DNA of 64,000 bases from Pempheris klunzingeri (lineage: Eukaryota; Chordata; Actinopteri; Acropomatiformes; Pempheridae). A program made the position numbers and the translations under genes. The stretch covers positions 12,156,374 through 12,220,373 of the forward strand of contig NC_092014.1 in the NCBI RefSeq assembly GCF_042242105.1, given 5' to 3'. The notes beneath the pieces are model-generated. The model was given only the letters and a program-made list of their open reading frames with translations, was not told where the DNA came from and did no database searches. Shown piece after piece: positions 1 through 41,816 of this stretch (position 1 is its first letter; each line of letters opens with the position of its first letter).

Positions 1-116
1 TCAAGCCAAATGAAAGCACACAGTCATCAGACATCACAGATAACTCATTAACTAATTCCTACGTTCCTGTTCCTGTCTCACCACAAGCTGTTCCTGCTCG
101 AATGTCACCTTTATAG
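1..116 (+). CDS. SCPP-like secreted protein, last coding exon only (truncated by window edge)
   Basis: The frame that is open from base 3 ends at TAG 114-116 and gives 37 residues: a Ser/Thr/Asn/Asp-rich start (residues ESTQSSDITDNS) and a Val-Pro-rich end finishing in RMSPL. An AATAAA at 142-147 lies 26 bases after the stop, as expected for a terminal exon. The composition fits the Pro/Ser-rich tails of SCPP genes, and an SCPP cluster follows directly. No splice acceptor is visible, so the exon or gene continues upstream of the window. There is no start codon and the family member cannot be named. The reading as an exon rests on the open frame, the poly(A) signal and context. Confidence 0.6.
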   Translation, partial: KPNESTQSSDITDNSLTNSYVPVPVSPQAVPARMSPL

Positions 117-141
117 ATCATTGTTATCATAAGTAGTGACC

Positions 142-147
142 AATAAA
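142..147 (+). terminator. Poly(A) signal of the truncated SCPP gene
   Basis: AATAAA 26 bases downstream of the TAG of the partial exon. Cleavage is expected about 10-30 bases later. Confidence 0.55.
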
Positions 148-149
148 TG

Positions 150-1640
150 ATTGAAGTCAATTACTGAATCTTTCTCGGGTCATTATTCAAATATATGAAT
201 GCAATACATGTTTGATTTCACATCATCTGGGGCCCAATGTGCAAAACACTGAACAACATGAACCAGCGTCATGGGTGTGGTTCCCCTGATGGTAGTTATT
301 TTTGTGTAAGAGACTGGTACGAATATGCACACATTTCTATTTACAGTGCACTGCCAGTGACTACTTGCAACATGGTGATTTGTGTGTGTAAAAATGAAAA
401 ACACCCCTCACACAATATATCATAGCAGAATTCCTGGAGTAACAAATTCTTGTTTGTAAATCCTGTGAAAAACTCAACATGTCTTTATAAATGAATGAAT
501 CATACATATCAGAATGCTTAAACTTACATGGTTAAATTAGGAAATACCTTTTGTCACAGTATTAAACGGCAAACAGGAAGAAAATCTTACTTAATTACTG
601 CATGACAGTCTGTAATTAGTGCAAAGCTCCAGACCAGACCAGACTTCCACAGAGGGTGTTTACCTGGTCTGCTGTGGGCTGCTCAGTCAGCAGCAGCAAA
701 AAAAAAAAAAAAAAAACCTTTCCCAGACAGCCCCAGTATGTAACACCCAGCCAGCCACACAGGGAATGAATGTAATGGCTCTAAACATGTTGAGAAAATT
801 TGCTATTTGTTTGCTTTTTACAAATTAAGCGGTCTGGTCATCGTTGTTGAGCGTAATATCAGTAGCTATTTTAGCACTTGTGTAAGTAAACCAGCTTGAG
901 GCAAATATAAACTCATCACAAATTACAGTAATCCCCTTCTAGACATGCCTGAGGCAAATATTTTAACTTTTCATTATCATACAGCATCTATTCAATTCAA
1001 TTCAATTCAATTCATTTTGTATAGCCCAATATCACAACAGAGTTGTCTCACAGTGCTTTACAAAGTTCACTGAAATAAACAAGAAGTGTAAGCGAACAAA
1101 CAATCTAATAAAGAGTCCAAAAAACATGCACACTTCTGGACATGAGACAAATTAGACGATGTAATTCTCATTCAGCTGTTTTGTAAAGTCACAAACAACC
1201 AACACAAGTCCTGAAGTCACAAACGTCATGCCGCTTGCAGGGAACCGATTTATTAAATTCAACCATACACGTGTTTTACAAGGTTTCTCCACAAAAGGAC
1301 TTGATGATGATGTCAGTTGTTTGCCTCCTGTGACCACAACCCGCAGCATTTAGATGGTTCATACTGGTTTGTAGTTTGTAGCCTCAAGAAACCTCCAAAA
1401 CCCTGTCCAAGACACTGAATCACTCTGTTATTGTTTGTGGTCACTCAGCTGTATTGATAACAATGGAAGAATGTTGAACAGGGTGAAGTGTCCTTAAAAT
1501 ACCCAGCTCACTGCTACATTTCTTTAAATCTTGTGCAGTAGAAAAAGAAGATGTCATATCACAAGTTACCATGACACACAGGTGACAAATATAGTTTATG
1601 AACTAGTCAGTGCTCTCCTCTCTAATTGGTTCATTATAAT
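150..1640. other. Intergenic stretch with a fish interspersed-repeat fragment
   Basis: I see no convincing coding exon here. Contents are an A-run at about 697-716 and, near 993-1080, a run of CAATT units followed by a 'tttgtatagcccaatatcac' motif, which is common in teleost dispersed repeats. An inverted CCAAT box (attgg, about 1625-1629) just precedes the TATA-like box of the next gene. Confidence 0.6.
993..1120. repeat. Teleost dispersed repeat fragment (CAATT-run / 'tatagcccaatatcac' type)
   Basis: Four or more CAATT-type units are followed by the tatagcccaatatcacaaca motif and 'cacagtgctttaca'. This arrangement recurs across fish genomes and resembles the related element at 48.1 kb ('tatagcgccaattcacaac ... 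gacgctttaca'). It is probably the tail of a retroelement. I cannot name the family from sequence alone. Confidence 0.5.
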
Positions 1641-1898
1641 CTCTGGGACTGTTAAAAGGTGCTCTAAATTCAGAGAGCAACTATAGTCGTTGGCACATAA
1701 TATTAGACTGAAGAACAAAATATAAGGTACGTATGTGCAGTTGAGATTTTTTAATAATGTGAACATAAATGTGATGTAATTCAGTACAAAGATAAAGGAA
1801 TAATCATGTTGTAACTAATATCACACACGTTAGCAAAAGATATTTAGTTTAATGAGTTAATTGCATCTTTCGTCTTTTTACAGGTTTCAGGCTACAAA

Positions 1899-3430
<1,532 letters not shown>

Positions 3431-4517: not shown

Positions 4518-4572
<55 letters not shown>

Positions 4573-5653: not shown

Positions 5654-7852
5654 ATGAAGCTGCAGACTACCCTTCTGTTAGTTTGTCTATTCAGGACAAG
5701 CTTTGCTCTTCCAGTGAGTTAAATCTCTTGTATATTTTAATAAACATAGATTTCTCATATCTTCTAAGATTGCAGAGATGAAGCGTTATTTTATTTTTTT
5801 CACAGTTGCAGATTGGAATTCTTGCAAGTAACAGCAATGAGGTAAACATAGCTGTTAAAACATTGATGTTTGTTGGATGAAAAGTCATTTAGGAATAATA
5901 TTCCAAACTTTAACACCACCCTCTTGCGTGTTCAGATCCTCAGACTGAATGGACTAACTCTGGCAACTCTTGGACAAACACAGGTAGTGGAAGTGTATCT
6001 ACACAAACACTGCTAATAATAATATTGTGCAGTCCTTGAGCCTTACATATGTAAAAAATAACACACAAAATTATATGTGAACTGAACCAAATCCTTTCCT
6101 CTGCAGGCGTCTTCAATATTGCCTCAGTATGTGCTGCAGCAGCAGCAGCCTGAGGTGCTGCTCACTCCACAGGTGGTGAACTTTAACCCTCAAGTGACTA
6201 GTCCCTTCGGTCCCCAGGGGCCTCAGCTGTTTGTCCCCAACCAGGGCAACCAGCCTGTGTTCATCCCCAACGGTCAGCAAGAGCAGCTTGGGCCTCCACA
6301 GGACCCCAATGTTCCTAAGGTCCCTCAGCAGGCCCAAAACCCTGTTCAGGTAGAGCAAAGCAGCATGTTAGATGCTGTGATAGTGTTATCTAATTAATTT
6401 GTGTCATTGAGAAATATGGGGAAATGAGTAACTGTTTTTGATTTCCTTTAGATGTTTCCACACTTCCAGTACCCATCTTATGGGTTTCCTCAACTTCCTA
6501 GACAGCATGTAAGCATTAAAACATATTGCCGTGTCTTCAAAGCTCAGTATCTTATACATTTAGTTGCGCACTGCAGATGTAAATTTATTCTATCATCCAC
6601 AGGGCTTCCCTTACTTTATCCCTCCTTACGGCTATCCCCAGCAGAGGAATAATGTAGTGCTGCAGCCCAACAACGGTCAGCAAACCCTGGAGAGAACCAC
6701 ACAGAGACCACAGCTCCCTCTGCAGGTCAGACATCCAACATGACATGAAATATAGGTGATAAGGTCCAAGTTTTCTCTGGGCTTGTTGATCAAAAACAAA
6801 TTGCAACAATTATCCAAAACATCTCAGCGATTGTGTCTTGCAACATACTTTTTTCTTGCCACTTTGAACTGAGGTTAAGAGCTGATAGCGCAGACTATGA
6901 CGACTGATGGCAAGAATGAATGATCATAACATAGCTGCAGATGTTGGGTCACATACGGCGACTGTGATGCACTGTTGTATGTCTGCCATACTGACCACAG
7001 AGTGGCTGTCTGGCTATGCGGTGGACTGCTGCAATCTTGTCACCTCAGCCACATTACAGTGTTGAATAAGAGTTAAGTAACTCTAAAATGTCTGCGATGT
7101 ACCGCACAAGGTTCATTGCTCAGTACTATTGACTATTCTATTTGTTAATTCATTTTTAGTCATGCAGATGGTGCTTGATGTTACATGTGGTTTATTTGCA
7201 TATGTGCATTTGTGGTTTTGCTATTGTTTTATCTTGATAATCATATATCATATTATCTTATAGGCCTCTTGATATTTTTTTATCTTATCTTTGATGGTTT
7301 AATGTCTACCTGAAAAATACGATGTCGGATCTGAAGAGGTTAATTTAAAATGTACATTAAAATATGTGGGTAAATACTTACACATATACATTTAATACCT
7401 AGGTAATCTTTTGCAATCTAATTTTCCTGCATATCCTCCCATTTTAGCAGGCTTTCCAGCCTAAAGTGCAGACAGAAAAAGTGAGTACACTACATAAGCC
7501 TCATTTTCATAATTGCATCAATAAAGCAAGGAAGCAGACAAGCGTGCACCAGTTACGTCTGAGTTACTGAGTAACTTTCTGTCTCTCTCAGACATGGCCA
7601 CTGGGGACACAAAAAGAGTCCACAACAATTCCTCCTGATCCTCGTGGCGACACATCTGGCCCAGGGATTGATGAGGTATGACTAAATACAATGACACTCA
7701 ACCTTTGAATCTCTTATACATTTATGTACATGCACACAAACAAAACCTTGTTCTCTGCTTTGCGTTTGAATTTGCAGAAGTTGATTCTTTCAAAAACTTA
7801 TTTCATGTTTCTCCAGGGTCACTCCAACTTCCCCTTCCTGTTTGAGCCTTAG
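5654..7852 (+). CDS. odam: Odontogenic ameloblast-associated protein (ODAM), about 239 aa, 9 coding exons
   Basis: Coding exons: 5654-5713, 5806-5841, 5936-5983, 6107-6349, 6452-6508, 6603-6725, 7448-7480, 7592-7675, 7817-7852. All introns are phase 0. The signal peptide is MKLQTTLLLVCLFRTSFA. Next come the hallmark exon with SNSNE (a Ser-x-Glu phosphosite) and ILRLNG, which match the SASNSNELL/NLNNG region of mammalian ODAM. The Gln/Pro-rich body includes FPHFQYP and YFIPPYGYP exons. ODAM is a secreted Pro/Gln-rich protein of maturing enamel/enameloid and junctional epithelium. Exon 9 carries an RGDT tripeptide motif (DPRGDTSG), and the protein ends FEP, like the REP end of mammalian ODAM. 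The acceptor of coding exon 7 is a TAGCAG tandem site, so 10- or 11-codon versions are possible. The 3' UTR appears spliced, with AATAAA at 8040-8045. Confidence 0.92.
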
Positions 7853-8313: not shown

Positions 8314-11082
8314 TCAGTAATCTTCCGTTAGATTGTCTTCCTCTCCAACAATCTCTCCAAGGGTCATCTTGAAAATAAAAAAGCAAATGTTCAAATTAAC
8401 CTCACAAGCCCCATTTTGAGGTACATTAATGTCAGTAAATGTGCTAAAATTGCTTTTTATAATTCGGCTAATTCCAAATTATAGGTATAGTATTACAGTT
8501 CTGTATAAAAGGAAACGGTAGGTCTGTGACTGGCCAAGTTGCCATATGCTTACAAATTGTCTGAACTTACAGGCTTCAAAACCCCATACTCAATGGAGAC
8601 TTTGTTCTTCAAATAGAAAAAGAGAAATTATGATTATCATCGAACACAGATAACATAGAATGTATAGTAAATACAGACATCATCATCATTTTTTTGTGTT
8701 CAAGGAGATCACCGGCTCTTTGGAATTGTAGATGAGCTTCACGTATTGCTGAAAAAAAGAGACAAAAATCTCAATGCAGCTGTACTGAAAATAAAATCAA
8801 AGATCAAACTAAACAAAATCTCTGCAAACCATACAACTGAAACCAAAATAAATCAGCCAGAGTAGAATACATGTGTATTCTAAAGTAGCTGACGGAAAGT
8901 AAAGTTTGACAAACAGCCAGTATACCCTGGTCCTCTGAGGCCTGTGTCTTCCTCCCTGTAAAACAAGCAACAGTAAAACTCAAACTGAGTGTCTGAGACT
9001 TAATGCTGTAATCTTTGTCACAAAATATTCAATTACTTTTTATACCTTATGATGGTGAGGTCCTCTTCCACCATGCTATGGATGGATTGTAAGTCAAAAA
9101 ATAAATCTTTATAGTCTTATATCCTTTTATTTAACTGTGTTAAAATCTTATATTGAAATTGATCTTCAGTCACCTACCTTTGGCATCAGAAATATGTTCT
9201 CCCCCTGCAACATTTTCACAACGCGGGTCAGTGTTATCATACAATTTCACAAGTTGGTGTAATTTACAACATAACGTGAATAAATAAATCAAATAACTAA
9301 ATCATATTGTTTACCTCCTTCAGGGTTACATCAGTGATGTTCTGGGGATGAAAGACACACAATTAGTTGAAGAATTGCAATACTGAGTGATGCCTCTGCT
9401 CTCAAACTCATCAAACTCACCATCTTACCTGAAATGTCACGTTGTCAACCTGAAAAGGATTATACACACGAGAATATAAGAGTTTTTACAACTGTTCCTG
9501 TAAATATAAGTTAAAGTTGTCACATTGAGAGATGACAGTGGGCCTACCTTGATCACAGGGGAAAACACCTAAAACAAGAAAGTAGTTGTGTATCACATTT
9601 TATCATATCACAGAACAATGCCGGTTTTGCTTTAAGTTTAAGTATTTTTGATTAATTAAGTTAAGTAAAGCAAAAAGTAATTAAGTTGAATTTCAAAGCC
9701 ATAAAAACACAGACACAATAAAAAAAGCAAAAATAATAAAGAAAAGAAAAACAATTATTATATTTTCAATTAACTTTTTTCATTAAAGTGTAGTTACCAG
9801 CTTACCATTACACCGGGGTTCCTCCTGTTGGGAAACTTGCCTCTTTGAGGTCCTTTGGGTCCGCCCAAATGCCCAGGATGAAGGACTCCAGGCTCATCAG
9901 TCATGAAACCAGAAGCCTGTATGACGCACAGATAATGCGCTCTTACAGTAAATTACATATATAAATAGGTAACAGAACAGCACGGTATGTTGTAGATGGT
10001 CTGAAGATGGTCTGAATATTATAACCTACTGTATGATGCAAGTGTTAAAGACATTTCAGTAAGTAGAGCCACAAGGTGATTTTCCAATATAACACTTTGG
10101 TCTTCTCTATGTCCAAATCACAGTTTACCTTCACTTTGTGCCCCCAATATCACAATATCTGTATTCAACTCCATTGTATTTACATGGAGATTCTGCGTTA
10201 TCATTTCTCTGTGTCAGGATAAACATAGATAATCTCCAAATAGATCCAACGGTGTCACAGCATTTCCATTACTAACCAACACCATGCAGAAGTATAAGAA
10301 GGCAAACAAGTATGAAAGTAAATTTCATCAATATGATGGCACTTTTCTTAAAAGAAACTAGTCTTAGTCCCTGGATGCAGGAGGAAAACAGGTACTCAAT
10401 AATCAATTAATTAATTTAACGACACAACCAGACTGAATAACAAAAAAAGCTGTTGTAAATACCTGTCTTTTGCCCCTAATAGGGACCTCAAAGGGTGTCC
10501 CCAGCTGATGGTCATTCCCATCAGTCCCTTTCTTGAGCCCCGATGGATTTCCATTTCCTGGTCTTCTAGAGGGTCTGTACATCTCATGTGGCTGCCCCGA
10601 ACAAGAAAAGAGACTCATTGATTACCTCTAACTACCAGAGTTACCATGTCTTCACAATTAACTAATAACTATATGACTTGAAATTCCTCATACCAATACT
10701 GGGTGACCTGAGTCCCATTCTGGCCACTGTCCACTTGTCCCCTCATCTCCATCTTCTGGGGCTTGTGTCACCAACTGTTCGTCGTCACCACGCTAAACAA
10801 ATAGGTAATTCAAGGAGAAGTACATGACATGCTATTCATGCTATTCATGTCATGTTATTCATGTCTGCTGACGTTTATTCTGTGTTACCTGAGAGTCTGC
10901 GTCCGGCTTGGGTCCACCAGTAGGCAGAAAATGTTCATCCTGCCAAAAAATAAAGAAAAATAGAATTATAAATAAACAATTTAAAAGTTAAGCATTTTTT
11001 CTGTATAATTTTAAAGTCACTGAAAACTCACATCAGCAGCTACTGCTGAGAAAAGTAAAGCTGCAATGCACAGGAGCTGCAT
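8314..11082 (-). CDS. Minus-strand secreted SCPP-like protein with RGD (240 aa, 14 coding exons)
   Basis: Coding exons in transcription order: 11082-11032, 10939-10889, 10792-10694, 10591-10463, 9916-9806, 9568-9548, 9449-9429, 9341-9315, 9204-9178, 9075-9046, 8955-8926, 8748-8713, 8606-8571, 8367-8314. Every one is a multiple of three with GT-AG ends, so the model is internally strong. The signal peptide is MQLLCIAALLFSAVAA. Exon 3 opens with RGDDEQ. The middle is basic and Gly/Pro-rich. Then come nine very short exons (7-12 codons, plus a 17-codon end), including the two basic exons HGGRGPHHHK and GGRHRPQRTR. NVT and NIT are potential N-glycosylation sites, NSKE is a Ser-x-Glu site, and the protein ends NLTEDY. 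The mature protein has no Cys. The exon layout and neighbours suggest an SCPP. I do not recognise the member, and it could be an unrelated matrix gene. Confidence 0.8.
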
Positions 11083-11274: not shown

Positions 11275-12003
11275 AGACATCAGACACTGAGACACACCAC
11301 ACATTTCTCAAAACAACATGTCTTAGTCACGCTTGATTATGTACAAAACAGCACTTACTTCACACATTATTTGCTAATGTCTTAATCCCTTGATGCTCAA
11401 TCTTAGCAACAGTACACCATGATAGCAATGATGACTGGCAGTGATGATTAATGATAATTAAATGAAAATTAGAAATAGAAACCCTCTTTAGACCACTTTA
11501 ATGAATGAACATTTTATGTGCATATCTATAGTACATAGTTTCTTGGGTAGTAGGGGTAATAGCCACAAGTCATTTCCTAAAACAAGAGGCAGCAAAAGGA
11601 AATGCAGGCTTCATTGGGTGTTGCCTGTTACCTGCCTAAGACGCTAAGTCACTTGACTTAGGTTTGTAATCATGAAACCAGGTATTTCCATGTTTGGAAT
11701 CTGTTTTCTGGTTTGCCAATACTGAAGGGTGGAGAATAAAGAGATTGAACCTACATAACAGTGGTAATAGTGGTAAAATGTTTTCTGCCTCACCTAAAAT
11801 ATTTAGATTTGAATTTTAGATAAATATGGTACATTATTTCTAATATGAGCTATCAAATGAATGCCACTTATCGCACTTCTAGGTGTGGTTTCCCTCACTG
11901 ATAATTAGCCTCACCTTCAAATGTTGAGGTGGAAGATTTCTTAATAATTGCAATTTCTCAACAATGCTGTATGCTAATGAGATGACATCCGCTGCTGTAA
12001 GTG

Positions 12004-12010
12004 TATATAA
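12004..12010 (+). promoter_or_regulatory. TATA box of the first Thr/Ala-rich SCPP gene
   Basis: TATATAA, followed by a non-coding exon 1 ending at 12087 (GTAATT donor). About 100 bases around it are nearly identical to the promoter of the copy at 18.47 kb, including an ATGCTAATGAGATG octamer-like block. Confidence 0.75.
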
Positions 12011-12190
12011 GAAAAGCTCAACGTTCAGGGCGACACTACAACCTCCTCGACTGTGAGATAATCTGCTAAATCTGTCAAGACTTGAAGGTAATTGTATGAA
12101 TCTTTTGTTTCAGTATTTTCTGTGTGATTTTAGAAAAGCTGTTTAAAAGCTGAACAAATCTTTAATATTTTCACTAAGATCACTGTAACC

Positions 12191-12767
12191 ATGCTGAAGC
12201 TAGCCCTGGTGCTTGGATGCCTCCTGAGCCTCGCTCTGGCTCATCCTGTAAGTGAAACATTTTCATACTCAATATCAACACCAGTGTTATTACATTTTGA
12301 TGCCAGTGAGATTATTGCAGTGCGATAATGGAGGTAATATCAAACTTGCAACCTGTGTATTTTCTGCAGATGGCGCACAAACGAGTTGCTCGGTCGAGTT
12401 CTGGCTCCAGCTCCAATGAGTCCAATGAGGTGGGTGCTTTCTTTGTCTTTTACACGTCAATATTCAACACACCTGAATGTCAGTTACTGTAAAATTTCAT
12501 AAAAATTCCTCTGCTGTATATTTTATATGAATGTTTCTGAATGTTTTCCTTTTGAAGCGTCGCCCCGCGGTTCCAAGCATTATGGACCAGTTGCAACAGC
12601 TGAAAACACTGGCGGAGATTATCAGACTCCTCCAGCAACCTGTGACTGCACCACCTACTGCATCTACTACAACTGCGGCTACTACTACTACTAAAGCTGC
12701 CACTACAACTACCGCTGCTGCCACTACCCCTGCCCCAGGCACTACTGCAGCTGCTACTACAAAATAA
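12191..12767 (+). CDS. Small Ser- and Thr/Ala-rich SCPP protein, copy 1 (108 aa)
   Basis: Coding exons: 12191-12247, 12370-12429, 12558-12767. Introns are phase 0. Exon 2 encodes the signal peptide MLKLALVLGCLLSLALA plus HP. Exon 3 is basic then Ser-rich, with two Ser-x-Glu (SNE) kinase sites, preceded by KRVAR, a possible proprotein-convertase site. Exon 4 holds an amphipathic Leu/Gln segment (MDQLQQLKTLAEIIRLLQQP) and a long Thr/Ala tail, a likely target of O-glycosylation. This is a typical short teleost SCPP. A second copy lies at 18.67-19.15 kb with almost identical promoter, signal peptide and intron sequence. Exons 3 and 4 have diverged most, so the mature protein changes faster than the flanks. 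I cannot name the member. Confidence 0.85.
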
Positions 12768-15815: not shown

Positions 15816-16317
15816 ATGAAACTGTTGGTCCTTGGTTTGTGCTTAATGGCCTTAAGTTACACCTTTCCTGTAAGTACTTGTATCACTGTTGACCTACTAT
15901 GTTGTAGTGTCTATGCTTTCAAACTTTGTACAAGGCTGCATGTTTTTTTTAAACGTTCAATTCAGATAAAAAACAATTAATGTGAATTCTTGCAACAATT
16001 GGTGATATATTCTATTCTTAAAGGTCTCTGAGGACAGTGATCGAGTCAAACGCTCAGGGAGTCATGAGGTCAGTCTGTGCAAAAAGATTCATTTACTGAC
16101 AAAATAGTTCTATTCACATTCTATAAAATCATTATTTCATATAAAATGCCACAAAATATATGCTTTTTTCTGTGTTTTCCAGATGAGCCATTATATGCTT
16201 TGGTATCCGTCACTCTACACCACCTATCAACCCAACCAAGACCTGACAGTGTTGCTGCAATTTCTGTTGGCTAGTCTTGCCAATGCAGCTGTTCCTCCTC
16301 CTCCTGCTGGAAAATGA
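15816..16317 (+). CDS. Small Pro-rich SCPP protein 2 (77 aa)
   Basis: Coding exons: 15816-15869, 16024-16068, 16183-16317, with phase-0 introns. The signal peptide is MKLLVLGLCLMALSYTFP. Exon 3 begins VSED and has SDRVKRS then GSHE, keeping the basic cleavage site and a Ser-x-Glu site, as in the gene at 13.6 kb. Exon 4 begins MSHYM and has Tyr/Leu segments before PPPPAGK, so the last two residues (GK) match the paralogue while the middle has diverged strongly. The open frame extends further upstream (to 15774), but an acceptor (TTGCAG, ending 15813) just before the ATG and homology to the paralogue support 15816 as the start. Poly(A) signal at 16392-16397. Confidence 0.82.
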
Positions 16318-17809: not shown

Positions 17810-17985
17810 GTGCACAAACAAATCACTGTTTCCCCACAGCTATGAGATTAGTTCTAAACCTTGGTGCATTTTCAAAACAACAAATAAGGCTCAATGTTTT
17901 TCTGTTACTTTCATCTTGGATAAAAAGCATGTAATGTGAATTTATGCCACAATCTTTCAGAATATATTAAAACTTTTGAGACCCC
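17810..17985 (+). pseudogene. Relic of a Pro-rich SCPP gene (exon 2 to exon 3 region)
   Basis: 'ccccacagct' followed by ATGAGATTAGTTCTAAACCT would encode MRLVLNLGAFS, resembling the paralogous signal peptide MKLLVLGLCLMALS. About 75 bases further on, 'aatgtgaatttatgccacaa ... atattaaaacttttgagacc' resembles intron 2 and the start of exon 3 of the gene at 15.8 kb (aatgtgaattcttgcaacaa ... tattcttaaaggtctctgag). There is no GT donor after the signal peptide and no SxE exon. I read it as a non-functional duplicate. Similarity was judged by eye. Confidence 0.45.
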
Positions 17986-18664: not shown

Positions 18665-19146
18665 ATGCTGAAGCTAGCCCTGGTGCTTGGATGCCTCCTG
18701 AGCCTCGCTCTGGCTCATCCTGTAAGTGAAACATTTTCATACTCAATATCAACACCAGTGTTATTACATTTTGATGCCAGTGAGATTATTGCAGTGCGAT
18801 AATGGAGGTAATATCAAACTTGCAACTTGTGTATTTTCTGCAGATGGCGCACAAACGAGTTGCTCGGTCTGACTCTGACTCTGACTCCAAGGAGTCCACT
18901 GGGGTGAGTGCTTTTGCTGTCCTTTACACTTTGCCATTCTACACACCTGAATGTCAGTTACTGTAAAATTTCTTAGAAAATCTTCTGCTGTATATTTGAC
19001 AATGAATCTGTCTGATTCTTTTGAAGAGTTCCAACGCCCAACCTCCAAACCTCACGCAACAGTTGCAACAATGGTTGGAGATCCTCAAACTCCTCCGGCA
19101 ACCTGTTACTGCGCCACCTGCTACATCCACCACTACTACAAAATGA
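18665..19146 (+). CDS. Small Ser/Asp- and Gln-rich SCPP protein, copy 2 (78 aa)
   Basis: Coding exons: 18665-18721, 18844-18903, 19027-19146. The signal peptide and the first eight residues of exon 3 (MAHKRVAR) are identical to copy 1. The rest of exon 3 has changed from a Ser-rich SNESNE end to SDSDSDSKEST, keeping Ser-x-Glu/Asp character but with alternating Ser-Asp. Exon 4 keeps the amphipathic Leu/Gln segment (QQLQQWLEILKLLRQPVTAP) but has lost most of the Thr/Ala tail, ending STTTTK. It is intact and probably functional. The pattern shows conserved non-coding sequence and a divergent mature protein. Poly(A) signal at 19282-19287. Confidence 0.85.
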
Positions 19147-19287: not shown

Positions 19288-19533
19288 CTTCATAAATGGA
19301 AAATGTGCAGTATGTTTGTTTTTCTTTAAAGCCCATATGTATGATGAACGTTCATGAAACTTTGTAAAAAGGTGTGTATCATAGAATGATTATGTTAGAT
19401 TGAAATGCAGTCTAGTATCTGACCAAAAGTGCAAAAACCTGTGAAATGCAGAGTGAACAGTATACTATTTAGGTAAAAAGGGTAGAAATGAATTGACTAA
19501 AATATACAAAGTCTGCCTATAGATAGATAGAGA

Positions 19534-19785
19534 GAAAAACACAAGCAGCCTACTTTGACAGCTGATTGCATGACTTGGGGATAAATTGAGGACTGACGTT
19601 TTGTGCAGTTCATTGAGGTCGGCCAAAAGAGTTTCGGATGTGACTTGATTTGCATCTTAAAATCTCTGAGGAGGAGAACTGAGTCAAATGCTCAGTGTAG
19701 AGTGACGAGGTCAGTATTTGGACACACGCTGTAACCAACTGTCAAAACAACCACATACACCACAGAATATATCTTTGCAGCCTCC
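19534..19785 (+). pseudogene. Pseudogene of Pro-rich SCPP gene 1
   Basis: The segment matches the promoter of the gene at 13.4 kb ('acttt gacagctgatt'), then jumps (exons 1-2 missing) to its intron 2, exon 3 and intron 3 ('gaatatatctytg'). The exon 3 relic, about 19661-19709, still reads like SVKxRS-SDE. However, its acceptor AG has become AA, and an in-frame TAG falls where SDD is encoded in the functional gene. Exon 4 is absent: a LINE fragment begins exactly where the intron 3 match ends. It is clearly non-functional. Confidence 0.82.
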
Positions 19786-23125: not shown

Positions 23126-23739
23126 ATGGAGTTTTTTCTTCTGATGAATTTCTGCTTGATCAGTATCACCATAGTTGTAAGTACAAAAGGAGGAATGCAT
23201 ATTCTTTTCTTGCAATTATTTTTGATGTCTCTTAAAGGACTTTCAGCGAATTTGAAAACCAAACAAGTATGTTATTCAATGTTTTTTTTTTTGCAGAATT
23301 GTCATCATTATCATAGCAGTGATTCAGACAGTGATGAGGTAAGAACGAATTCTCATCACTCTAGCAGTGAGTCTGACAGTGATGAGGTAAGAATTCTATT
23401 AATCCTACCATTTGTCAGCTCTATTGAAAGATAGCAAAACAGATTTGATTTTTAAAAATGATTTTTAAAACATTATATTTTGTCTTGCTGCAGAGAGGCA
23501 ATTGGTCCCCAAAGCCGATTCCTCCCTGGTTTTCCTTTCCTATCTGGCCTCTGTTTCCTGGTCTGTGGCCACAGCCACCACCTGCCCCACCTCCACCTAC
23601 GACACCAAAACCAACCCCAGCCACAACCAAGAGGCCAACCACAACCTCAACCCCAGCCCCAACCCCAACCCCAGGCCCACAGCCCCCCAAGACAACAGTT
23701 GCTGCTACCACTGAGATCCCTCGAGGAGACAGCGGATGA
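23126..23739 (+). CDS. Acidic-exon plus Pro/Thr-rich SCPP protein with C-terminal RGD (128 or 112 aa)
   Basis: Coding exons: 23126-23176, 23297-23386 (or ending 23338) and 23494-23739. The signal peptide is MEFFLLMNFCLISITIV. Exon 3 is His/Ser/Asp-rich (HHYHSSDSDSDE) and contains a 51-base tandem duplication that also copied the GTAAGA donor. Both donors are in frame, so the gene can make one or two acidic cassettes. The last exon starts NWSPKPIPPWF, has a Trp/Pro/Phe stretch, then Pro/Thr repeats (TPAPTPTPGP) likely to be O-glycosylated, and ends IPRGDSG, a classic integrin-type motif next to the terminus. It is probably a secreted calcium- or mineral-binding matrix protein. I do not recognise the exact member. 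The start at 23126 is the first ATG of this frame. Confidence 0.82.
23297..23396 (+). repeat. 51-bp tandem duplication of an acidic SCPP exon including its splice donor
   Basis: Unit 1 (23297-23347) and unit 2 (from 23348) both read aattNtcatca ... agcagtga ... gacagtgatgaggtaagaa. Unit 2 lacks one codon. Each unit ends in GAG followed by GTAAGA. Confidence 0.88.
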
Positions 23740-26460: not shown

Positions 26461-26636
26461 TTCTGTCATTGGTTGTTTCACTCTCTGAGCAGTGCATAAG
26501 TCAATGCCCCCTCTCACAGTGTTTCATTGAATTTAAAGTGCTCTAAGAGAACATTCCTTTCAGTTTTCATTGATCCTCTGACAATCAATTCAAAACCAAT
26601 TTCTATTATTTGTTTTGTTTTTGGAAATGATTATCC

Positions 26637-28613
26637 TAATCCTACTGTCATGTTTTACCGTGATGCTGTCAGCAGTGCCAGTAAATGGCTCATTTGTTAA
26701 CAATATTTGAAATGTCACATTTCACATTATCGTATGATGTGAAACCTGTTGTAACAGTGATCATTTAGGGATTTTTCTTTTATATTTTCAGGTCTTTCCT
26801 CCCCTTCTTTCACAAGGAGGAGCCATTCAAGCTCAGAGAGTTGAAGCCACAAACCTGACACCTGACGCTCAGACGCCAGCCCCGCTTTCCCCTGAGGTGG
26901 AGCAACCGCAGCCTGGGGCAACCCAACAGCTGGGTCCTCAAGGTGGCCCCCAGTTCCTGCCTCCCACACAACACTACACCTGGTCTCCACTGGGGGGCAG
27001 TTCAAAGATCATACTGTTGCAGCCAAGTGTCCATGGAGCTCAGCCTGCTAACCAGCCGACACTCCCACAGCAGCTTCAGGTAGGACATAAAACATTTGGA
27101 GAAATATTAACAGATAAAAAATATATATATTTATCTTTATTCCAAAGCTATTTTATTTTTTTACTCATAGCAATAATGTAAATTCTAGAGATACTCTCCA
27201 GTGAATCAGAAGTAACTAAGTTTACTTTGTTGCTGTATTTTTCAGATTTTCTCTCCTTATGGTTACTTTCCTCTTTTTTCATCATCCTACAGAAATCAAC
27301 TGGTAAGATATCATTGAGAAATAATAGTAATGCAAATAGTACAGTGTTCTGTGCTGTGCTACAAACTGTAGATGCAAAACTATTTTCCAACCACAACCCA
27401 GCTTGAAAGATTTCACCTGGAGGGTCTTTAACACATTTCTACAGTGCACATTTTTTTCCTCATATGTGCTGTCAACATGTTCTGTATAGAATAACTGAAA
27501 CAGCTATAACAGTGTTGTGGAAATAAAGACATCTGTACTTTGCCGCAATCTGTCACTTGATTTATGACTCTCTGAGATGGAAACTTAGATACTGTTTCGC
27601 CTTGAGCATGTTTTTCTGTCTCAAGTGATGTTGTAATTGTATTAATTTATCTATTATATACGGTATGCAATTGATGTTTGGTGCAGAATTGCAGTTGTGT
27701 CTTGTCTTTTGCAGAATTTGTTGACAAACATTAAATATAAGATTTTTCTCTCTCTTAGTTTTCCCCATATGGATTCCCAATGATTCTTGAATCACCTCGT
27801 CCACAGACTCCAGCAAATCAACCTCAACCTGCAGAAACACCTTCTGAAGTAGGTCCTTTAGGAGATCCACCTCAGCAACAGCAACAGGTGTGTTATAAAC
27901 TTCAATCAGACAGCAGTGCTCATATAATAAAAAAGACAACATATTCTACTTCAAAATGAGGCTAAAGTTGCATTATGTCTTATTTTCATCCACAGAATCC
28001 CCAAAATGTATACATACTCCAGCAATCCATGGTACGTGCAAAATACACTCTGTAAACTTGGATATACTCATGAATCGTGCTCAGTCTGTCTTTTCTGTCT
28101 GATTATGTTTTATTGGACGTTTGCTGTCATTCTTTACTAGAGCTCTCAACTTGGCAGTCTCAGCTCAGAAGAACTTGAGGTAACACCGCCAAGATTTTTA
28201 TCTGTCTCCCAGCTTGTTCAGACAATCTGCTCAGTGAACTCATTGATCCTATTGATGATCCAATTGTTCTCCCTCCCTTGACTCTAACAGTATTTTTCCT
28301 CTCTTCTATGTCTCAGATGGCAGCTAAAATGGGCCAGCTGGGTGTGTACCTGCCCACTGTGCTTGCAAACCTTCCTGCAGGAGCTGTGCAGCCTGTGAGC
28401 CAGGCGGCTGGGCTCGCAAACACAGACAAGCAAGGCATCGTGCCAACTGTGGGGACCTCGTCAGCCCCACAGACGCAGCAGCTTGCAAGCTCTGGACCAC
28501 AGCCGAACACTAACGGGATCCCTGTAGGTCTGGAAAGACCCATGCAGAGGGAGGCCACTGCCCAAACACCTGTTCAATCCATACTCCAAACCACACAGCG
28601 AACCTTTGTCTGA
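26637..28613 (+). CDS. Pro/Gln-rich SCPP protein with amelotin-like SSEEL block (299 aa, 7 coding exons)
   Basis: Coding exons: 26637-26690, 26792-27079, 27246-27302, 27759-27887, 27996-28031, 28141-28179, 28317-28613. All introns are phase 0. The signal peptide MIILILLSCFTVMLSA is followed by VP. Exon 3 is long and Gln/Pro-rich, and two successive exons start FSPYGYFP and FSPYGFPM. A 13-codon exon then reads LGSLSSEELE, and the last exon starts MAAKMGQLGVYLPTVLANLP. The order LG-x-SSEEL, hydrophobic stretch, Pro/Gly/Ala-rich tail resembles mammalian amelotin (…ILSSEELPQIF…) and, less well, the SSEE region of ameloblastin. Both are enamel-surface SCPPs next to ODAM in tetrapods. I infer an enameloid/collar-enamel protein and leave the symbol open. 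A likely acceptor for exon 2 is TTTCAG at 26563. Confidence 0.85.
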
Positions 28614-30374: not shown

Positions 30375-32132
30375 ATGAAATTCATCCTACTTGCTGCCTG
30401 TGTCCTTGGGATGGCTGTCTGTGCTCCTGTAAGGAAAACATCCTATTTCTACAATATTTCTCCTTCTTCTGTCAAATATATATTTTGGCACTGCTTTTAC
30501 AAAAAAAAAAAATCCTTATGTCAACTTCCATGTCGCTGTTTTGAAGCTTTCAATCATATCACACAGTACTCATCAGCAAATGGAGTTTGCTCGACTGTCC
30601 TTATAGATGTTCAAACTTTTACTTTTTCTGAGCAGTTCAAAGTCTTTTTGCATTTGTTCTTTATTGACAGTTGTCTGTGGATAATATCTTAAGTTTGTCT
30701 GTGAATTATAGATTTTGCACTGACCTGCATTCCCTTGATTCTGCTGTATTTTCTCTTTTTCAGCCGCAGACTTACATGGAGTTTGACATCCGTTACGCTC
30801 CAGCTGAGGTACAGTAAGATGCAGTTTAGATCAGCTGGTGTATATCATCACATGCACACAAAAACCACAGTAAAAGACACATTTTCGAAAATCACTGAAT
30901 AAGCTCTGCTCACAGGTCTGCTATTATGTGTTCCCAAATGATGGTAATGTCTGTATAGCTGAGCCTGTTGATGTCTCGTTTACTTGTAGTTTGCTGCTTT
31001 TATCAAAATCTGTGTTCATCTGAAGGTTAAAATGATTAATGATCCTTACAGGCAGCCAAGGCTATTCCTGCTGGAGCTCCAGTTGGATCTCTGGATGTTG
31101 TAAGAGCTAATTTATATTGTTTATATGTATCGAATTTTATCTAATGATTATGCTTTTGTATGATAATCTCGACTGTTTTTATTTCCAGCTGCTCCCTGTT
31201 GATGCCCAGAGGCAGCCTATTGGAGGAGCTGTGAGTGCCTTGATTTATGTGTGCATATATTACCAAGATAATTAACAGTATATACAATCCAACAAAAAGT
31301 AGTTTCAGGGACCAAATGTATATCACAGAGCAGAGCTAATTTATACCTGTTTTTAAGTGCGTGCGTGTCTGCATGTGTTTTCAATCAAAGGTCCGTGGCT
31401 TTGTCAAGCAGGAGATCCCCGAGCCAAATGGTAGAGACTCCAAGGATGTGGTAAGAGCCTGCAGATTTTCATTTCTCCAGCAGAAGTAGTATAAGATTTT
31501 ATTGACCTAATGATCTTTTCTTATTCTCACCTGCTCCAGTTCTTCCCCTTTGGTTTTGACCTGCCGGACCCTGCCGCTGCTGCCCCTGCTGCTGCTGCCC
31601 CTGCCGATCCCGTTGCTCCTGCAGATCCCGTTGCTCCTGCAGATCCCATTGCCCCTGCTGATCCCGTTGCTCCTGCTGATCCCGTTGCTCCTGCTGATCC
31701 CGTTGCTCCTGCTGCTCCAGCTGCCCCTATTGTACCTGTCGTTGTTGCTAGTGTCCCCGTAAGAATGACCACAATTTTACATTTTGAAGCATTTAGGTTG
31801 ATAGAAAAATCCAAAAGATTTGGTCACAAGCAGCTGTCAACCATATTAATGGTTTGATTGATTTTAACGTACAATAATAGCTTTAAATGACTGCAGCAGG
31901 CAGGAAACTGTATTGAACTCAAGTGGTGACGAGGGCATCGGGTTCATTCTAATAAATTAGTGTTGCGTCAGAGGAACTGTCTTCCAGCTATTTCTGCTGA
32001 GGTGTTGAGAAACATTGACTAATCAGGACACACACATTAAATGATCCTCTCTCCTGCCTAGCTAATCAGAAGCGTCTGTCATTTTAGGCTGCCAAAACCA
32101 CTGGAGATGATGATGATGATGACGACGACTAA
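30375..32132 (+). CDS. Ala/Pro/Asp-repeat SCPP protein with poly-Asp tail (170 aa, 8 exons incl. non-coding)
   Basis: Non-coding exon 1 ends at 30243. Coding exons: 30375-30428, 30764-30808, 31052-31099, 31189-31230, 31391-31450, 31540-31758, 32088-32132, all phase 0. The signal peptide is MKFILLAACVLGMAVCA plus P. Short exons follow (PQTYMEFDIRYAPAE; AAKAIPAGAPVGSLDV; LLPVDAQRQPIGGA; a Lys/Glu exon with NGRDSKDV). The large exon starts FFPFGFDLPDP and carries an Ala-rich run, then hexapeptide repeats of the type PADPVA. The protein ends TTG followed by eight Asp. It has no Cys outside the signal peptide. The poly-Asp end suggests strong calcium or mineral binding. The repeat style resembles the SCPP gene at 39.4-41.7 kb. 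Poly(A) signal at 32485-32490. The member is not identified. Confidence 0.85.
31618..31725 (+). repeat. 18-bp coding minisatellite (PADPVA hexapeptide)
   Basis: Units of the type gatcccgttgctcctgct, with small variation, encode about six to seven PADPVA/PADPIA hexapeptides inside the large exon. The frame is kept in all units. Confidence 0.88.
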
Positions 32133-33902: not shown

Positions 33903-35544
33903 ATGAAATTAACCATCCTGTGCCTTTGTCTGGCAAGCACAGCCACAGCTGCGCCTGTAAGTTTTAGAAAATAGACAAAAGTTGCTCTCATGATTTAATT
34001 CTCTAGACTAAGACAAAATTTTGACATTTATTTGATTAAACTATTTCTGTTTTTCCAGTCCTTCTTTCACTACCTGCCTCATGTAGGTTCCAGACAACAG
34101 GTACCACCCTCACAGGTAATCATGTATATTATGTGCTGTGCTAATATGAATAATAAACAGTACACTACTGAGCAAAGGCTCCTTGTGATAAAGATATGAA
34201 GCACAGTAGAAATATTGCCGTGTGGAATTCACCGTCTACTACCAATCCCAATGTCTTTAATCCATTCAGATGAGAAATCCCTTTACTGCTGGTCAGTCCC
34301 TCCCACAACCTGGACTACATGGCGCTTACAGTGTGGAGCTAGTACGTCACACTATTTCTTTCTTCATATGCTGTTTCATTTCACTGACATTTGTTTTTCA
34401 TGAAATGCTGTGCATGCTGTGATTACAACTCATGCTTACAGTGTAATTGTGCTTTTTCTAAGATTTATCCCCACAGATTTGCTGGTGGTGCAGGTGGGTC
34501 ACAGGTAAGCATGTGTGCGTTTTACAGAAACATCTTTGTAAATGTGATAAAACATCATGTAAATGCTCACTGCTTTTCACTTTTGTTTTTCTCCCTTTTC
34601 CTCAGCCCTTTCCCTCCCAGGGTCTCATCAAGTACTCCATTCCTCAGCCACCAGGCAGACAGAGTGTGGAAATTGTAAGTGTGGTTTCCCATTTTAGACT
34701 GCAGATTACAACATTGGGACTGAAATCACTTCAATTAATGCTCACAGTAGGAGTATATTAGTTGCAATAAACAACTCAATGGAGCAAAATTGATGTTTGA
34801 ACTCTTGTTTTGTTTTTTTTACCTTTGCAGTACTACCCCTATGACTTCTCCCAGCAAAGGGTAAACATTTTAAACCTTGAGATATTATCTGATTCATATT
34901 GTAAATATGACATAATACAAATATACTTCCATATAATTTTACATGATACATGTATCTAATGAGTGTATTTGCTTTTCTTCCAGATACTGACAGACATCCC
35001 GCCTATGACAAATGTCATTCAGATGCAAAATGTGAGACATTATTAATTCTATATTATGCCTTTTAATGTTATTCTTTGATGTTGATCTGTTTCATATTTT
35101 ATGCACCTTTTTTGTTTTCACAGGGGCTTCCATTTGAATATCCCCCTCAAATTATTCCCCAGCAAACTCCAAATGTGAGAAAATTAGATTGATATATTGT
35201 ATATATACAGTATAATATCTCATAGTGCCTTGAAAAAGTTTATTTTATTTGTCTCTGAGCGTTTCTTCACTTTTTCAGATTCCCTCATTTGATGTCAATG
35301 CCCTTCCATCCCAGGATCCTCTGCAGCCTCTCCAGCAGGACCAGCCCATACAGACAAACCAGGTACTTATCAATCTATATATTATTACAGTTCAATAACA
35401 GCTGCATTGAAAATTGATGCAAATATTGAAAATTGCTATTCATATGACCATAAAGGCAATGTCATCTGTATGGAGAGTGTGTGAAATGAACAATATTTGT
35501 TTAAAATTGTTTATTTGTCTTTGCAGATGCCGACAAGGGTTTGA
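33903..35544 (+). CDS. scpp5: Pro/Gln-rich SCPP protein, probably SCPP5 (174 aa, 10 coding exons)
   Basis: Coding exons: 33903-33956, 34059-34115, 34270-34341, 34463-34504, 34606-34674, 34831-34860, 34984-35031, 35124-35174, 35279-35362, 35527-35544. All are phase 0. For the 34463 exon the upstream TCTAAG acceptor keeps the frame, while a later CCACAG does not. The signal peptide is MKLTILCLCLASTATAA plus P. The mature chain starts SFFHYLPH, has Pro/Gln/Tyr-rich modules (QGLIKYSIPQPPG; YYPYDFSQQR; GLPFEYPPQIIPQ), a Gln/Asp-rich exon, and a five-residue last exon (MPTRV). It lacks a strong acidic exon. SCPP5 is a P/Q-rich enameloid/ganoin matrix gene of ray-finned fish. Composition and modules fit what I recall of it, so the gene call is firm and the symbol tentative. 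Confidence 0.75.
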
Positions 35545-35615: not shown

Positions 35616-36334
35616 TGACGTGAAACAATTGGCTTAAATCCGTTGCAACACCTGTATGTGCTTAAGTTAAAATACTTAACGTAGAATACTATGATGATCA
35701 TAAAATAACCACTTTTTATTTAGAATACTTTTGCAGTAGTACACTAAATCATGATAAGGTCACCTGCATAGAACTGAATATATTTCTGAAGAATTTCTTG
35801 GGCTACTTTATAGTCTTCATAGATTTTTAATATTAATGTTTTAATGAGGCACTTTGTAATGCTGCATTTCCACAGTATTCAACAAATGTATGTCTATTAA
35901 CTCATTTGAACTTTTCCTTAAATGTAATTTTCCTTAAGAATTAAAGTGTATGTCTTCAAGCAATCTTTGGTTTTTCTGTGTTTTTGATTTTAAGAGTTTG
36001 GTTAGTATTATTTGGATGTGGTAATCTGTGTTAAAACACAAATTCTGTTGGAAAAGTTGCTACCCTAGCATTGGGAACAACTGTTTACACTGCAAAGCAA
36101 CCCAAAACAGGAAGTTTTACTACTATAAAAGCAATAAAAAAAAGTAAATATTCGTGAAATGCTTCAGAATGATGAGACTTGCATGATGCTGCTACTTTCA
36201 TTACCCTGTAACAACTAAATGTGTTGCAGTGGTTCGTTAGGTTGTGTCATGGATGTAACGTTATCATAAGACCTCTTCTAACATATACATGGAGTGTGTA
36301 GGAAGATTTACCATGAAAGCAGGCTATGTGTGGC

Positions 36335-36615
36335 TGTGTTAATTATTGCTGATAGTTTAGCCTTCTGCTAACTGTGACATTAGCAAAAGGCTTGTAGCTG
36401 TGGGTAATTCAGTTTATCTGGATAACATTATGCATTGGGATCAAAATCACGTTTGGGATGATTGATGCTGCAAGCTTAATTTTCTGCGATATGTATGCAT
36501 AGATTAATCATGAATTCAGGCAAAGACTCGCTGTGTTAAATGTTGCTAATAGTTTAGTCATGTGCTAATGTTAGCCAAAAGGCCATGTCTGCGGCTAATT
36601 TCAGTTCATGTTCAT
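36335..36615. repeat. Degenerate tandem duplication, unit about 190 bp
   Basis: Both halves contain 'tgtgttaa-t-ttgct-atagttta', then 'gctaa-tgt-a-cattagc-aaaggc' and 'ctg-ggctaattcagtt'. They differ by substitutions and small gaps. No further similarity was found by eye. Confidence 0.4.
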
Positions 36616-39175: not shown

Positions 39176-39182
39176 TATATAA
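39176..39182 (+). promoter_or_regulatory. TATA box of the acidic Ala/Asp/Glu SCPP gene
   Basis: TATATAA with an inverted CCAAT (attgg) about 20-25 bases upstream. Non-coding exon 1 ends at 39269 before GTGAGG, after an unusual A11-12 run. Confidence 0.78.
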
Positions 39183-39444
39183 ATGACATCCATGTTAGAG
39201 ATGAAGTAGATTACTTTCCATCCCTGAGGAAACACATCTTCAATTTCTCTCTGCACCAAAAAAAAAAAGGTGAGGTGGTTTTTTCATATGGACACAATTT
39301 TACACTGTGTTAGAAACATAAACCTACTGATCTTACAGGCTTTGTAGCCAGTTATCTTCCCTTAATTTCAATTTCGTGCTTTCTCTTATTTAACAAAAGA
39401 AAGGGAAAAATTATACGATATATGTTTTATCTCTAGGAACAGTC

Positions 39445-41672
39445 ATGGTGAAGCTATTGGTGTTCATGATGTGCCTGCTGGTTACTGCTTTGGCTGCTCC
39501 TGTGAGTCTTCAGTGTGTCATTTCATCTGCCTACTGATCCCTTTTTAAAGATTTTAAACACTGTTTTTCTTTAAGGAAAAATACGTAAAGTCATTGTTTC
39601 TCAATCTCTCTCGTCATTGTCATTTCTCTTGCTTGGTTTGCAGGTTACGCAGAGTGAAAGTAATGAGGTAAGATTAAGGTTTTAGCTTTTCTGTGAGGAT
39701 TTTGTGTCTGTCTGCTATGGCATGTCATACCATGTTTTTGTCATGTCATCAAATGTAGAGTATGATAGATGAAGAGGATAATTGGCTTAATTGCAGCTCA
39801 TGTCTGGAGATGTCTGGTATTTCCTCTGCAGGTCGCAGCACATGCTAATGAGGCCCTCAGGTGGATGGAGATGTACAGGCTGTACCAGCAGCAGGTAGTG
39901 GGGGTTCATTGTAGCTTAAAAAAAAAAAAATCATACATTATAATCATAAATTAAAATCATGAATCTGTATTTTTTCAGGGAGTAGTTGGAAACCCCTTCC
40001 TTCCTGCTGCTGATGCTCCTGTAAGTGTATGTCTCGTTAGACTCTAGCATGACTTCAGTTTTAGATTTAGGTGAACACTTTAAAACATAAACTACACACG
40101 GGCATATTCATTACAGTTTGTGTGTTTCATGAATTATTCTTTTGTTTAGGCTGATCCAGCTGGGGCAACAGTGGTAAGCACACACAGAAGGCTGCAATAT
40201 CTAACTTGTTTACACTTCAATATTGTTAAAAGTGCTAAAAGTGTTTTATTTGTTCAGGCTGACGCTGCACCAGCCCAGCAAGCTGATGTTGCCCCTGCAG
40301 CAATTGCTGTTGAAGATGCATCAGAGGAGGAGACTGAGGTAGACACATAACCGAAATAAACTATACATGCATATATGATATTGACATACTTTTACCTACT
40401 TGAGGGGAAATATAAGTTCTAAAATTAATTCACCAGTTGTTTGTTTGTAACTAGTTTGGACACAAATTGCACTTCCACTTCCATTAAACTAAAAGAAAGC
40501 TCATGATATATTGTGATTTTTCCATGAACAAAACAAAACACCTCCATTGGATTTGTAATGGAGCACTCATCAATTCATATAAGGTAACAGTTTCATGTCT
40601 CCTGCACTGAATTTCAATTGGGAGCTCTGCCTGCAGTGCATTTCTTTCCCAGACAAAAGGTATCACTCCAAGCATCTTTTTTCTGAATTTTTCTTCTTTG
40701 CTGTTTTTCCACAGAAGATATTTTGACATTTCATTGTAAGAAAATGAGAGGCATTACAAATAATATAGGTGATGGCTCTGCTCTATTCTAGTGTCCAGTA
40801 ATATGTGATTCAGCATGCACAATACTGAAACTGAGGCACCTAAATAGAATTCAGTCTTGATTTTATCACGTAAACCTGTGCTTGTTCTCCATTTAAAAAG
40901 AGAACTGGTAGATATACTCCGCTGATATATGCATATGCTTTGTAATGATGATGAAGGAGTACTCCAAAGGTAGATAACTATTGTACTTATCTTGCTGGCT
41001 GTTATTTCCTACAATGCAACCCCACCCCACCCACATGGTAAATGTACACCTCTTCCAAACGTCGTGCCTCCAGTTTGTACACAGGCTGTTAAAAAAGCAT
41101 AATCTCCAAAAACAACATTTGATTACTCAAGTGATACTTTTCACTGGGTAACTAAATGTATGTGGAATGTATCCATGTTCACTCAAAGTCATTTTCTTTC
41201 TGTCTCCTTGGCACAGGGTGGCAACACTGCCCTGAAAGCTGCTGCTCCTGCTGCTCCCCTAAACTCTGATGAAGTGGAGGAGGCCGAAGAGGTGGAAGCA
41301 GCCGAGGCTGAACCAGCTGTTGTTGAAGCAGCACCAGCAGAGCCGGCAGCAGAGCCGGCAGCAGACCCTGCAGCAGACCCTGCAGCAGACCCTGCAGCAG
41401 ACCCTGCAGCAGCTGTTGAGCCAGCTGTGGTTGACGTTCCCGTAGATTCTGCAACAGTCGATGCTACTGTTGTGGATGTACCTCCTGTTGATGTGGTTCC
41501 TATTGACGTTGCCCCGGCGGCCCCTGAGGTAGCTGCTGATACAACCGCTCCTGCCGCAGCAGATATCCCTGCTGCCGCTGCCGATGCTGCTGCTGCTGCT
41601 GATGCCGGTACTGACCCACAGGCAGCTGAGATCGACATGAATGGAGTGGCAGCAGATCCTGCTGTACTGTAG
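39445..41672 (+). CDS. Acidic Ala/Asp/Glu/Pro-rich SCPP protein (248 aa, 7 coding exons)
   Basis: Coding exons: 39445-39501, 39644-39667, 39832-39894, 39979-40020, 40150-40173, 40258-40338, 41217-41672, all phase 0. The signal peptide is MVKLLVFMMCLLVTALAA plus P. Exon 3 is the classic short SCPP phospho-exon VTQSESNE with two Ser-x-Glu sites. Exon 4 is a conserved-looking helix (ANEALRWMEMYRLYQQQ). Small Ala/Pro exons then lead to SEEETE and a 151-residue last exon that is Ala/Glu/Asp/Val-rich, with no Lys or Arg after its first residues and AADP tetrapeptide repeats. The mature protein is very acidic, which suggests a bone- or dentin-type calcium-binding matrix role. It may be the teleost gene called scpp1, but I cannot confirm this. 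Poly(A) signal at 41811-41816. Confidence 0.88.
41339..41412 (+). repeat. 12-bp coding minisatellite (AAEP/AADP tetrapeptide)
   Basis: About six tandem copies of the type gcagcagaccct (first two with gag-ccg) in the last exon of the acidic SCPP gene. Confidence 0.88.
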
Positions 41673-41810
41673 TTATCTGTACTGTTATTTCTATCCTAAG
41701 TGTTCCTTTGTTAGCTGTGAGAACAGTTTGTAACAACAATGAGTATCATGCAGCACAAAAGGATGAAAAAGCTGTAGCATATTGAATAGAGACTGAGAAA
41801 AACATAAAAA

Positions 41811-41816
41811 AATAAA
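41811..41816 (+). terminator. Poly(A) signal of the acidic SCPP gene
   Basis: AATAAA about 140 bases after the TAG. Confidence 0.7.

Follow-up and report, generated by a model that had tools for sequence, protein, structure and literature searches.

A teleost SCPP gene cluster in Pempheris klunzingeri with a probable gene conversion tract and a possible counterpart of FDCSP

The window analysed here, 64,000 nucleotides of Pempheris klunzingeri (assembly GCF_042242105.1, contig NC_092014.1, positions 12,156,374 to 12,220,373), carries in its first 41,816 bases a run of SCPP-type genes that is very probably the teleost SCPP gene cluster Ia, from scpp9 to enam, encoding proteins that would be secreted, probably disordered and destined for mineral matrix. 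The cluster is real, well explained and of an already described kind; the interest lies in a lead concerning FDCSP and in an apparently converted scpp3 pair rather than in the cluster itself. Exon anatomy, motifs, gene content and order, and duplication are all observed directly in the window. Four points go beyond the first-pass annotation of this DNA: a probable conversion tract joining two scpp3-type genes (E and H), two relics of such genes, the duplication of an exon together with its donor in gene I, and a likeness to FDCSP and amelotin. All positions below are those of the window.

Gene models and exon anatomy

Gene models were rebuilt exon by exon, with bases 1-58,000 read by eye and 58,001-64,000 covered by scans. 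Positions 1-41,816 yield one partial and twelve complete models, the count that the first-pass annotation had reached, with eleven of the complete genes on the plus strand and one (D) on the minus strand:

3..116, plus: A, partial, truncated by the window edge to its final coding exon; scpp9-type from position only, possibly scpp9b (single-exon in Acanthomorpha)
1899..3430, plus: B, 8 coding exons, 178 amino acids, M/G/P/Q-rich; scpp9a by position
5654..7852, plus: C, 9 coding exons, 238 amino acids, 31% P/Q; odam by its ASNSNE motif and place
8314..11082, minus: D, 14 coding exons, 240 amino acids, the sole minus-strand gene; scpp16 by position
12191..12767, plus: E, scpp3-type, 3 coding exons, 108 amino acids
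13590..14097, plus: F, scpp3-type, 3 coding exons, 82 amino acids; FDCSP-like over nearly its full length
15816..16317, plus: G, scpp3-type, 3 coding exons, 77 amino acids; Pfam FDC-SP match below cut-off
18665..19146, plus: H, scpp3-type, 3 coding exons, 78 amino acids; leader exon identical to that of E
23126..23739, plus: I, scpp3-type or scpplpq4, 3 coding exons, 112 amino acids (128 with the long exon 3)
26627..28613, plus: J, 7 coding exons, 299 amino acids; placed as ambn, with a small SSEEL exon that resembles amelotin
30375..32132, plus: K, 7 coding exons, 170 amino acids; scpp7 (or scpp5) by position, with a module common to L
33903..35544, plus: L, 10 coding exons, 174 amino acids; scpp5 (or scpp7) by position
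39445..41672, plus: M, 7 coding exons, 248 amino acids; enam (fa93e10) by position

Together the models hold 78 coding exons, 77 of them in complete genes, and 6,162 of the 41,816 bases are coding. Every coding exon (78/78) has a length divisible by three, as had been claimed for nearly 80 exons, a rule that is partly built in because frame steers the choice of boundaries; one boundary in L (34,463-34,504) was shifted in order to keep frame. The exons are short, with 50 of the 78 measuring 20-60 nucleotides, and no exon holds a whole complete gene, so that the earlier description of these genes as not annotatable from single open frames is right in substance. The cluster thus illustrates why SCPP annotation is hard (52/78 exons are of 60 nucleotides or less), and PMC13367325 likewise describes genes of this family as missed through fast evolution and dependence on similarity searches.

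Internal exon boundaries of the final models are all AG...GT, and against all GT and AG dinucleotides of the window the median splice-site percentile is 97.8% for donors (n=65) and 98.6% for acceptors (n=65). Ten sites fall below our cut-offs (donor below 90%, acceptor below 85%), including the acceptor of B at 2737 (37th percentile) and, among the remaining nine, five in D. A putative signature of the non-coding exon 1, consisting of a TATA-like box followed by a donor ahead of the ATG exon, accompanies 10 of the 12 complete genes; it was not found for J and is ambiguous for I. Introns between coding exons are phase 0 throughout the SCPP family. Exon 2 encodes the signal peptide in the family rule as given in the text of PMC4373244, and a leader exon is present in all twelve complete models, as the first-pass annotation had proposed. 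SxE/SxD motifs occur in 11 of the 12 proteins, and the first mature exon, next to the leader, ends in Ser-x-Glu in six (C, E, F, G, I and M).

Frame-blind and leader tests

The earlier claim that such coherence is hard to obtain by chance was addressed without recourse to frame, by joining each strong acceptor to the nearest strong donor regardless of reading frame and, in the main version, keeping one interval per donor. On the plus strand of 1-41,816, at the 90, 93, 95 and 97% quantiles of splice-site strength, 61/141, 50/101, 36/70 and 24/37 intervals are divisible by three (P 0.009, 0.0006, 0.001 and 0.0001). The flank control, both strands of 42-64 kb, gives 45/120, 24/74, 12/48 and 7/25, and the minus strand of the cluster without D gives 34/102, 19/59, 14/31 and 7/10 (the last with P 0.02 and small n). 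The contrast, which bears the claim out, is therefore clear against the flank and less clear against the minus strand at the strictest thresholds, where some excess of multiples of three tells against our reading. Without the one-per-donor filter, 54 of 105 intervals at the 95% quantile on plus 1-41,816 are divisible by three, and of these 54, frames 0, 1 and 2 are open in 36, 29 and 15, respectively; in that version, two of 20 control rows reach P 0.02. A first, over-strict version left too few intervals (11/18 on plus 1-41,816, 3/7 on the minus strand).

Leaders were also sought blindly over both strands of the whole window, as an acceptor, an ATG, a hydrophobic stretch and an in-phase donor in succession. 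The scan recovered nine of the twelve leaders (C, D, E, F, G, H, K, L and M), missed B, I and J, and made three false calls; on one strand of 60 Markov copies of 1-41,816 it made a mean of 0.8 calls and a maximum of 6.

Some models might nonetheless be over-fitted, as chance AG...GT chains picked for frame, D and parts of B most of all. Weak splice sites occur in B and D, gene D alone is not significant in the unfiltered frame-blind test (9/20, P 0.19), and the boundary in L was picked by frame. Set against these are the 14 consecutive in-phase exons of D and its blindly found leader, the rise from 14/31 to 22/43 (P 0.012) when D is added to the minus strand at the 95% quantile, and the P-rich pattern that the peptides of B hold from exon to exon. 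We regard over-fitting as very improbable, and real SCPP genes remain the preferred reading of these models.

Gene order and cluster identity

Kawasaki 2026 (PMC13367325) describes four teleost SCPP clusters (Ia, Ib, IIa and IIb), so the window would not hold the whole SCPP repertoire. For cluster Ia it gives one list (enam, scpp7, scpplpq4, scpp3, scpp9a, scpp1) and a second (scpp5, ambn, scpp16, odam, scpp9b, with sparcl1 alongside the cluster); the single order used here is our own merge of the two. PMC5713400 lists fa93e10 (enam), SCPP5, SCPP7, SCPP6 (ambn), ODAM, SCPP9, SPARCL1 and SCPP1. Read from the opposite end, the window is compatible with the list-derived order, with A/B as scpp9, C as odam, D as scpp16, E-H as scpp3, I as scpp3 or scpplpq4, J as ambn, K/L as scpp7 and scpp5, and M as enam. 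The window resembles the teleost cluster Ia of both papers in its signal-peptide exon, short phase-0 exons, P/Q-rich composition, odam adjoining several scpp3 copies, and compatible order; it differs from it in lacking scpp1 and sparcl1 and in its own scpp3-type set with an apparently converted pair and two relics. Catfish are reported to carry odam and scpp3 copies on the same scaffold, and published scpp3 copy number varies, parrotfish having 2 copies and gilthead bream 8.

Gene C is called odam from motif and place. Its second coding exon ends in ASNSNE, a string that we take to be present in human ODAM also, and its alignment with a provisional human ODAM sequence scores above all 300 of 300 plain shuffles. 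The Pfam ODAM profile finds no match in C (the provisional human sequence reaches 4e-146 in that library), and therefore the name does not come from the profile. Gene J, at 299 amino acids, is close in length to the ambn of humphead wrasse (309 amino acids in PMC10932694), and its exon at 27759-27887 contains 8 Gln, where exon 4 as published for two teleosts has 6-8, although the exon numbers disagree.

Several observations weigh against the assignment and its gene names. The names of A, B, D, I, K, L and M are by position, from an order taken from text lists, and the text of PMC5713400 elsewhere puts SCPP9 ahead of ODAM, so that either sequence can be read from it. Pfam assigns none of the twelve complete proteins to a family at its cut-off, and B, scanned as a whole protein, has no SxE/SxD at all. 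For C, 25 of 400 exon-wise shuffles reach its score against the provisional human ODAM, BLASTP against the same protein finds no match at E 1, and a provisional human AMBN sequence is matched at E 3e-4 with the leader included. In J, the exon numbered 4 here has a single Gln, and with leaders removed 42 of 300 shuffles reach its score against the provisional human AMBN. SPARC-like sequence was not found anywhere in the window with a provisional human SPARC sequence as query.

The last result bears on the earlier proposal that this is the main P/Q-rich plus acidic cluster of the species, of which the P/Q-rich part stands, as it fits cluster Ia, and the acidic part is doubtful. For gene M, Ala-rich and acidic in composition (18.5% D/E, 31% A), the simplest reading is enam (fa93e10), given its far-end place in the published text lists. 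As it sits at the place expected for enam, beside a CNGA1-like gene in a window where no SPARC-like sequence was found, it is probably not the acidic scpp1. Published clusters place scpp1 together with sparcl1, and in zebrafish sparcl1/scpp1 are reported to be located elsewhere; here the two may sit to the left of base 1 or elsewhere. Single-exon scpp9b was not seen among the 12 ATG open frames of at least 90 amino acids in 1-43,000.

Proposed function of the encoded proteins

Secretion, phosphorylation, mineral binding, tissue and function are inferred from the family. Each complete gene would direct the synthesis of a secreted, probably disordered protein from a signal-peptide exon followed by mostly short phase-0 exons, many of them P/Q-rich, and the Ser-x-Glu sites near the N terminus would suit a secretory-pathway kinase. 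The proteins would be secreted from dental epithelium, odontoblasts or cells that form scales, and in the matrix of enameloid, dentin and scale they would bind calcium phosphate. PMC13367325 reports expression of scpp3 in the outer dental epithelium, of odam in the inner dental epithelium, and of scpp5 in odontoblasts as well as the inner dental epithelium; PMC10568847 covers medaka expression of scpp2/odam and scpp5. Because the introns are phase 0, exons could be gained, lost or skipped without breaking frame. SCPP genes would multiply by tandem duplication, which is exemplified here by the scpp3 array with its four or five scpp3-type genes, two relics and one apparently converted pair; by sequence, E/H, F/G and K/L are clearly duplicates, in line with the earlier claim of tandem duplication.

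Duplication, decay and probable conversion in the scpp3 array

The array contains, besides genes E to I, the following elements:

12084..12395 (E) and 18558-18869 (H), plus: probable conversion tract between E and H, ending within the phosphoserine exon
17823..17953, plus: G-type relic, two pieces matching the upstream flank and intron 2 of G
19533..19777, plus: F-type relic downstream of H, with upstream and exon-3 remnants and two stops in exon 3

Across the 312 sites of 12,084-12,395 there are 2 mismatches between E and H, and the longest such run in 2,000 permutations was 133. The tract takes in the leader exon and intron 2, together with most of intron 1 and the beginning of the phosphoserine exon. 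Introns 1 and 2 differ at 1/90 and 1/122 sites. Past the breakpoint the two genes differ at 11/34 sites in the rest of the phosphoserine exon, 20/122 in intron 3 and 40/121 in exon 4, the sequence beside the tract being 16-33% diverged. On the 5' side, 11,909-12,083 shows 7 mismatches in 175 sites and a 4-base gap, and upstream of 11,909 there is no clear homology (137/285; unrelated controls have a mean of 0.433 and a maximum of 0.492). The relic behind H is 78% identical to F and follows H as F follows E; therefore an E-F block was probably duplicated earlier and the second F decayed. The sequence comparison suggests that the promoter and leader part of E and H was homogenized later, most simply by gene conversion.

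The same divergence pattern admits other accounts. Recent duplication followed by rapid, selected divergence of the 3' halves of E and H could suffice, without any conversion; given the few differences on the 5' side from 11,909 and the unclear homology upstream, the 5' limit may mark where a duplicated block stops. Intron 3 and the F relic, however, are far more diverged than introns 1 and 2, which selection on the protein does not explain; we consider this account unlikely. It is less likely still that several copies are pseudogenes in a decaying array, with only part of the twelve genes expressed. The two relics among the scpp3 copies would suit decay, as would the tails of E and H, which diverge at an NG86 dN/dS of about 0.8 and, beyond the breakpoint, faster in coding sequence than in intron 3 (Fisher P 0.002, from a gappy alignment). 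Open frames and splice sites are nevertheless kept in all twelve models, and extensive substitution is called normal for the SCPP family in the text of PMC13367325. With probable gene conversion as the preferred reading of the E/H pair, the array shows how copy number can change through block duplication and decay, and through an apparent conversion by which promoter and leader become alike again as the mature proteins drift apart.

In gene I, exon 3 (23297-23386, plus) contains a 48-base in-frame tandem duplication that carries its own donor. From the sequence, this exon has two possible ends, 23338 and 23386, and would accordingly encode one or two SDSDE clusters. A basic RVKR/RVAR stands just before the serine cluster in E-H (E 12370-12429, F 13797-13844, G 16024-16068, H 18844-18903), and is a candidate furin-type site.

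A possible counterpart of FDCSP, and the amelotin-like end of J

A possible, if somewhat doubtful, reading makes scpp3 of teleosts the ray-finned equivalent of FDCSP in mammals and gives J, in the ambn place, an amelotin-type C terminus. The comparison sets one fish against provisional human sequences, and its main survey applied exon-wise shuffles to 72 pairs, the 12 genes against six such human SCPP proteins. The top three of the 72 pairs are J-AMTN (z 6.4), F-FDCSP (z 5.2) and K-AMELX (z 4.4), each with 0/400 shuffles reaching the score. In plain shuffles, F scores 101 against FDCSP with a maximum of 74 in 5,000 (0/5000). The other scpp3-type copies are weaker against FDCSP, with 5/400 for I and 15/400 for G exon-wise and 44/1,000 for H and 154/1,000 for E in plain shuffles. 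Pfam FDC-SP matches G at E 0.02-0.04, below cut-off, and has no match in unaltered F. As part of the scpp3-FDCSP reading, the sequences suggest that F keeps the ancestral form (FP/IP-VS...KRS..DSDE, then a Pro-rich tail) and that E and H have diverged.

AMBN and ENAM complete the mammalian ODAM-FDCSP-AMTN-AMBN-ENAM segment. The window resembles this segment in the ASNSNE of C, the near full-length alignment of F with FDCSP, the SSEEL exon of J, and the gene order C, F, J, which equals the mammalian order ODAM, FDCSP, AMTN as PMC4174742 gives it; it differs in that J stands where ambn is expected. The SSEEL of J lies in a small exon, SSQLGSLSSEELE, at 28141-28179, and the phosphorylated SSEEL motif of amelotin is reported in the text of PMC4373244 to be necessary for its mineralizing property. 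The same text describes a small SxxE exon as common to AMTN and AMBN, and because of this the amelotin likeness of J may only reflect the kinship of the two. FDCSP is described as a Pro-rich 8 kDa protein of the junctional epithelium and a reported hydroxyapatite binder, a location that parallels the reported expression of fugu scpp3a/b in the epithelium over jaw and teeth. The literature searched, from which key SCPP papers lay out of reach, gave no text naming both scpp3 and FDCSP, and among papers on FDCSP with SCPP and teleost no fish study by title.

According to PMC8081666, the current view has caseins descend from ODAM via FDCSP and SCPPPQ1. If scpp3 is FDCSP, the ODAM-FDCSP-AMTN/AMBN-ENAM run would be older than the divergence of ray-finned from lobe-finned fishes, and FDCSP would be no recent derivative of ODAM. 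The proposed source lineage of kappa-casein would in that case go back to an epithelial tooth gene present in early bony fishes, and the question of where FDCSP and kappa-casein came from could be tested with the existing gar, bichir, coelacanth and lungfish genomes. Kappa-casein has a similar exon plan in PMC8081666 (an untranslated first exon, a leader exon, a short exon and a large exon rich in P/Q), but the window genes differ from it in sequence, none of them matching a provisional human CSN3 sequence significantly (best z 2.1), and it was set aside as a relative. Statherin and histatin 1 likewise received no clear support as relatives of the scpp3-type genes, the lowest value being 12/500 (E-histatin). 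The K-AMELX match was set aside as repeat-driven, since shuffling destroys the APADPV repeat of K; this is a judgement, not a test.

Flanking and other features

A perfect TCTA microsatellite of 138 bases (1951-2088) starts 10 bases 3' of the leader exon of B. The gap between L and M contains a direct repeat, 74% identical, at 36304-36417 and 36501-36609. Beyond M lies one further gene:

43678..47241, plus: cyclic-nucleotide-gated channel alpha subunit gene (CNGA1-like), not SCPP; two stretches tested, ATG and stop from sequence

Further right, 48878-52607 holds degenerate pieces of a non-LTR retroelement, in which two open fragments weakly match the Pfam families for endonuclease (E 0.0045) and for reverse transcriptase (E 0.0055), both below cut-off.

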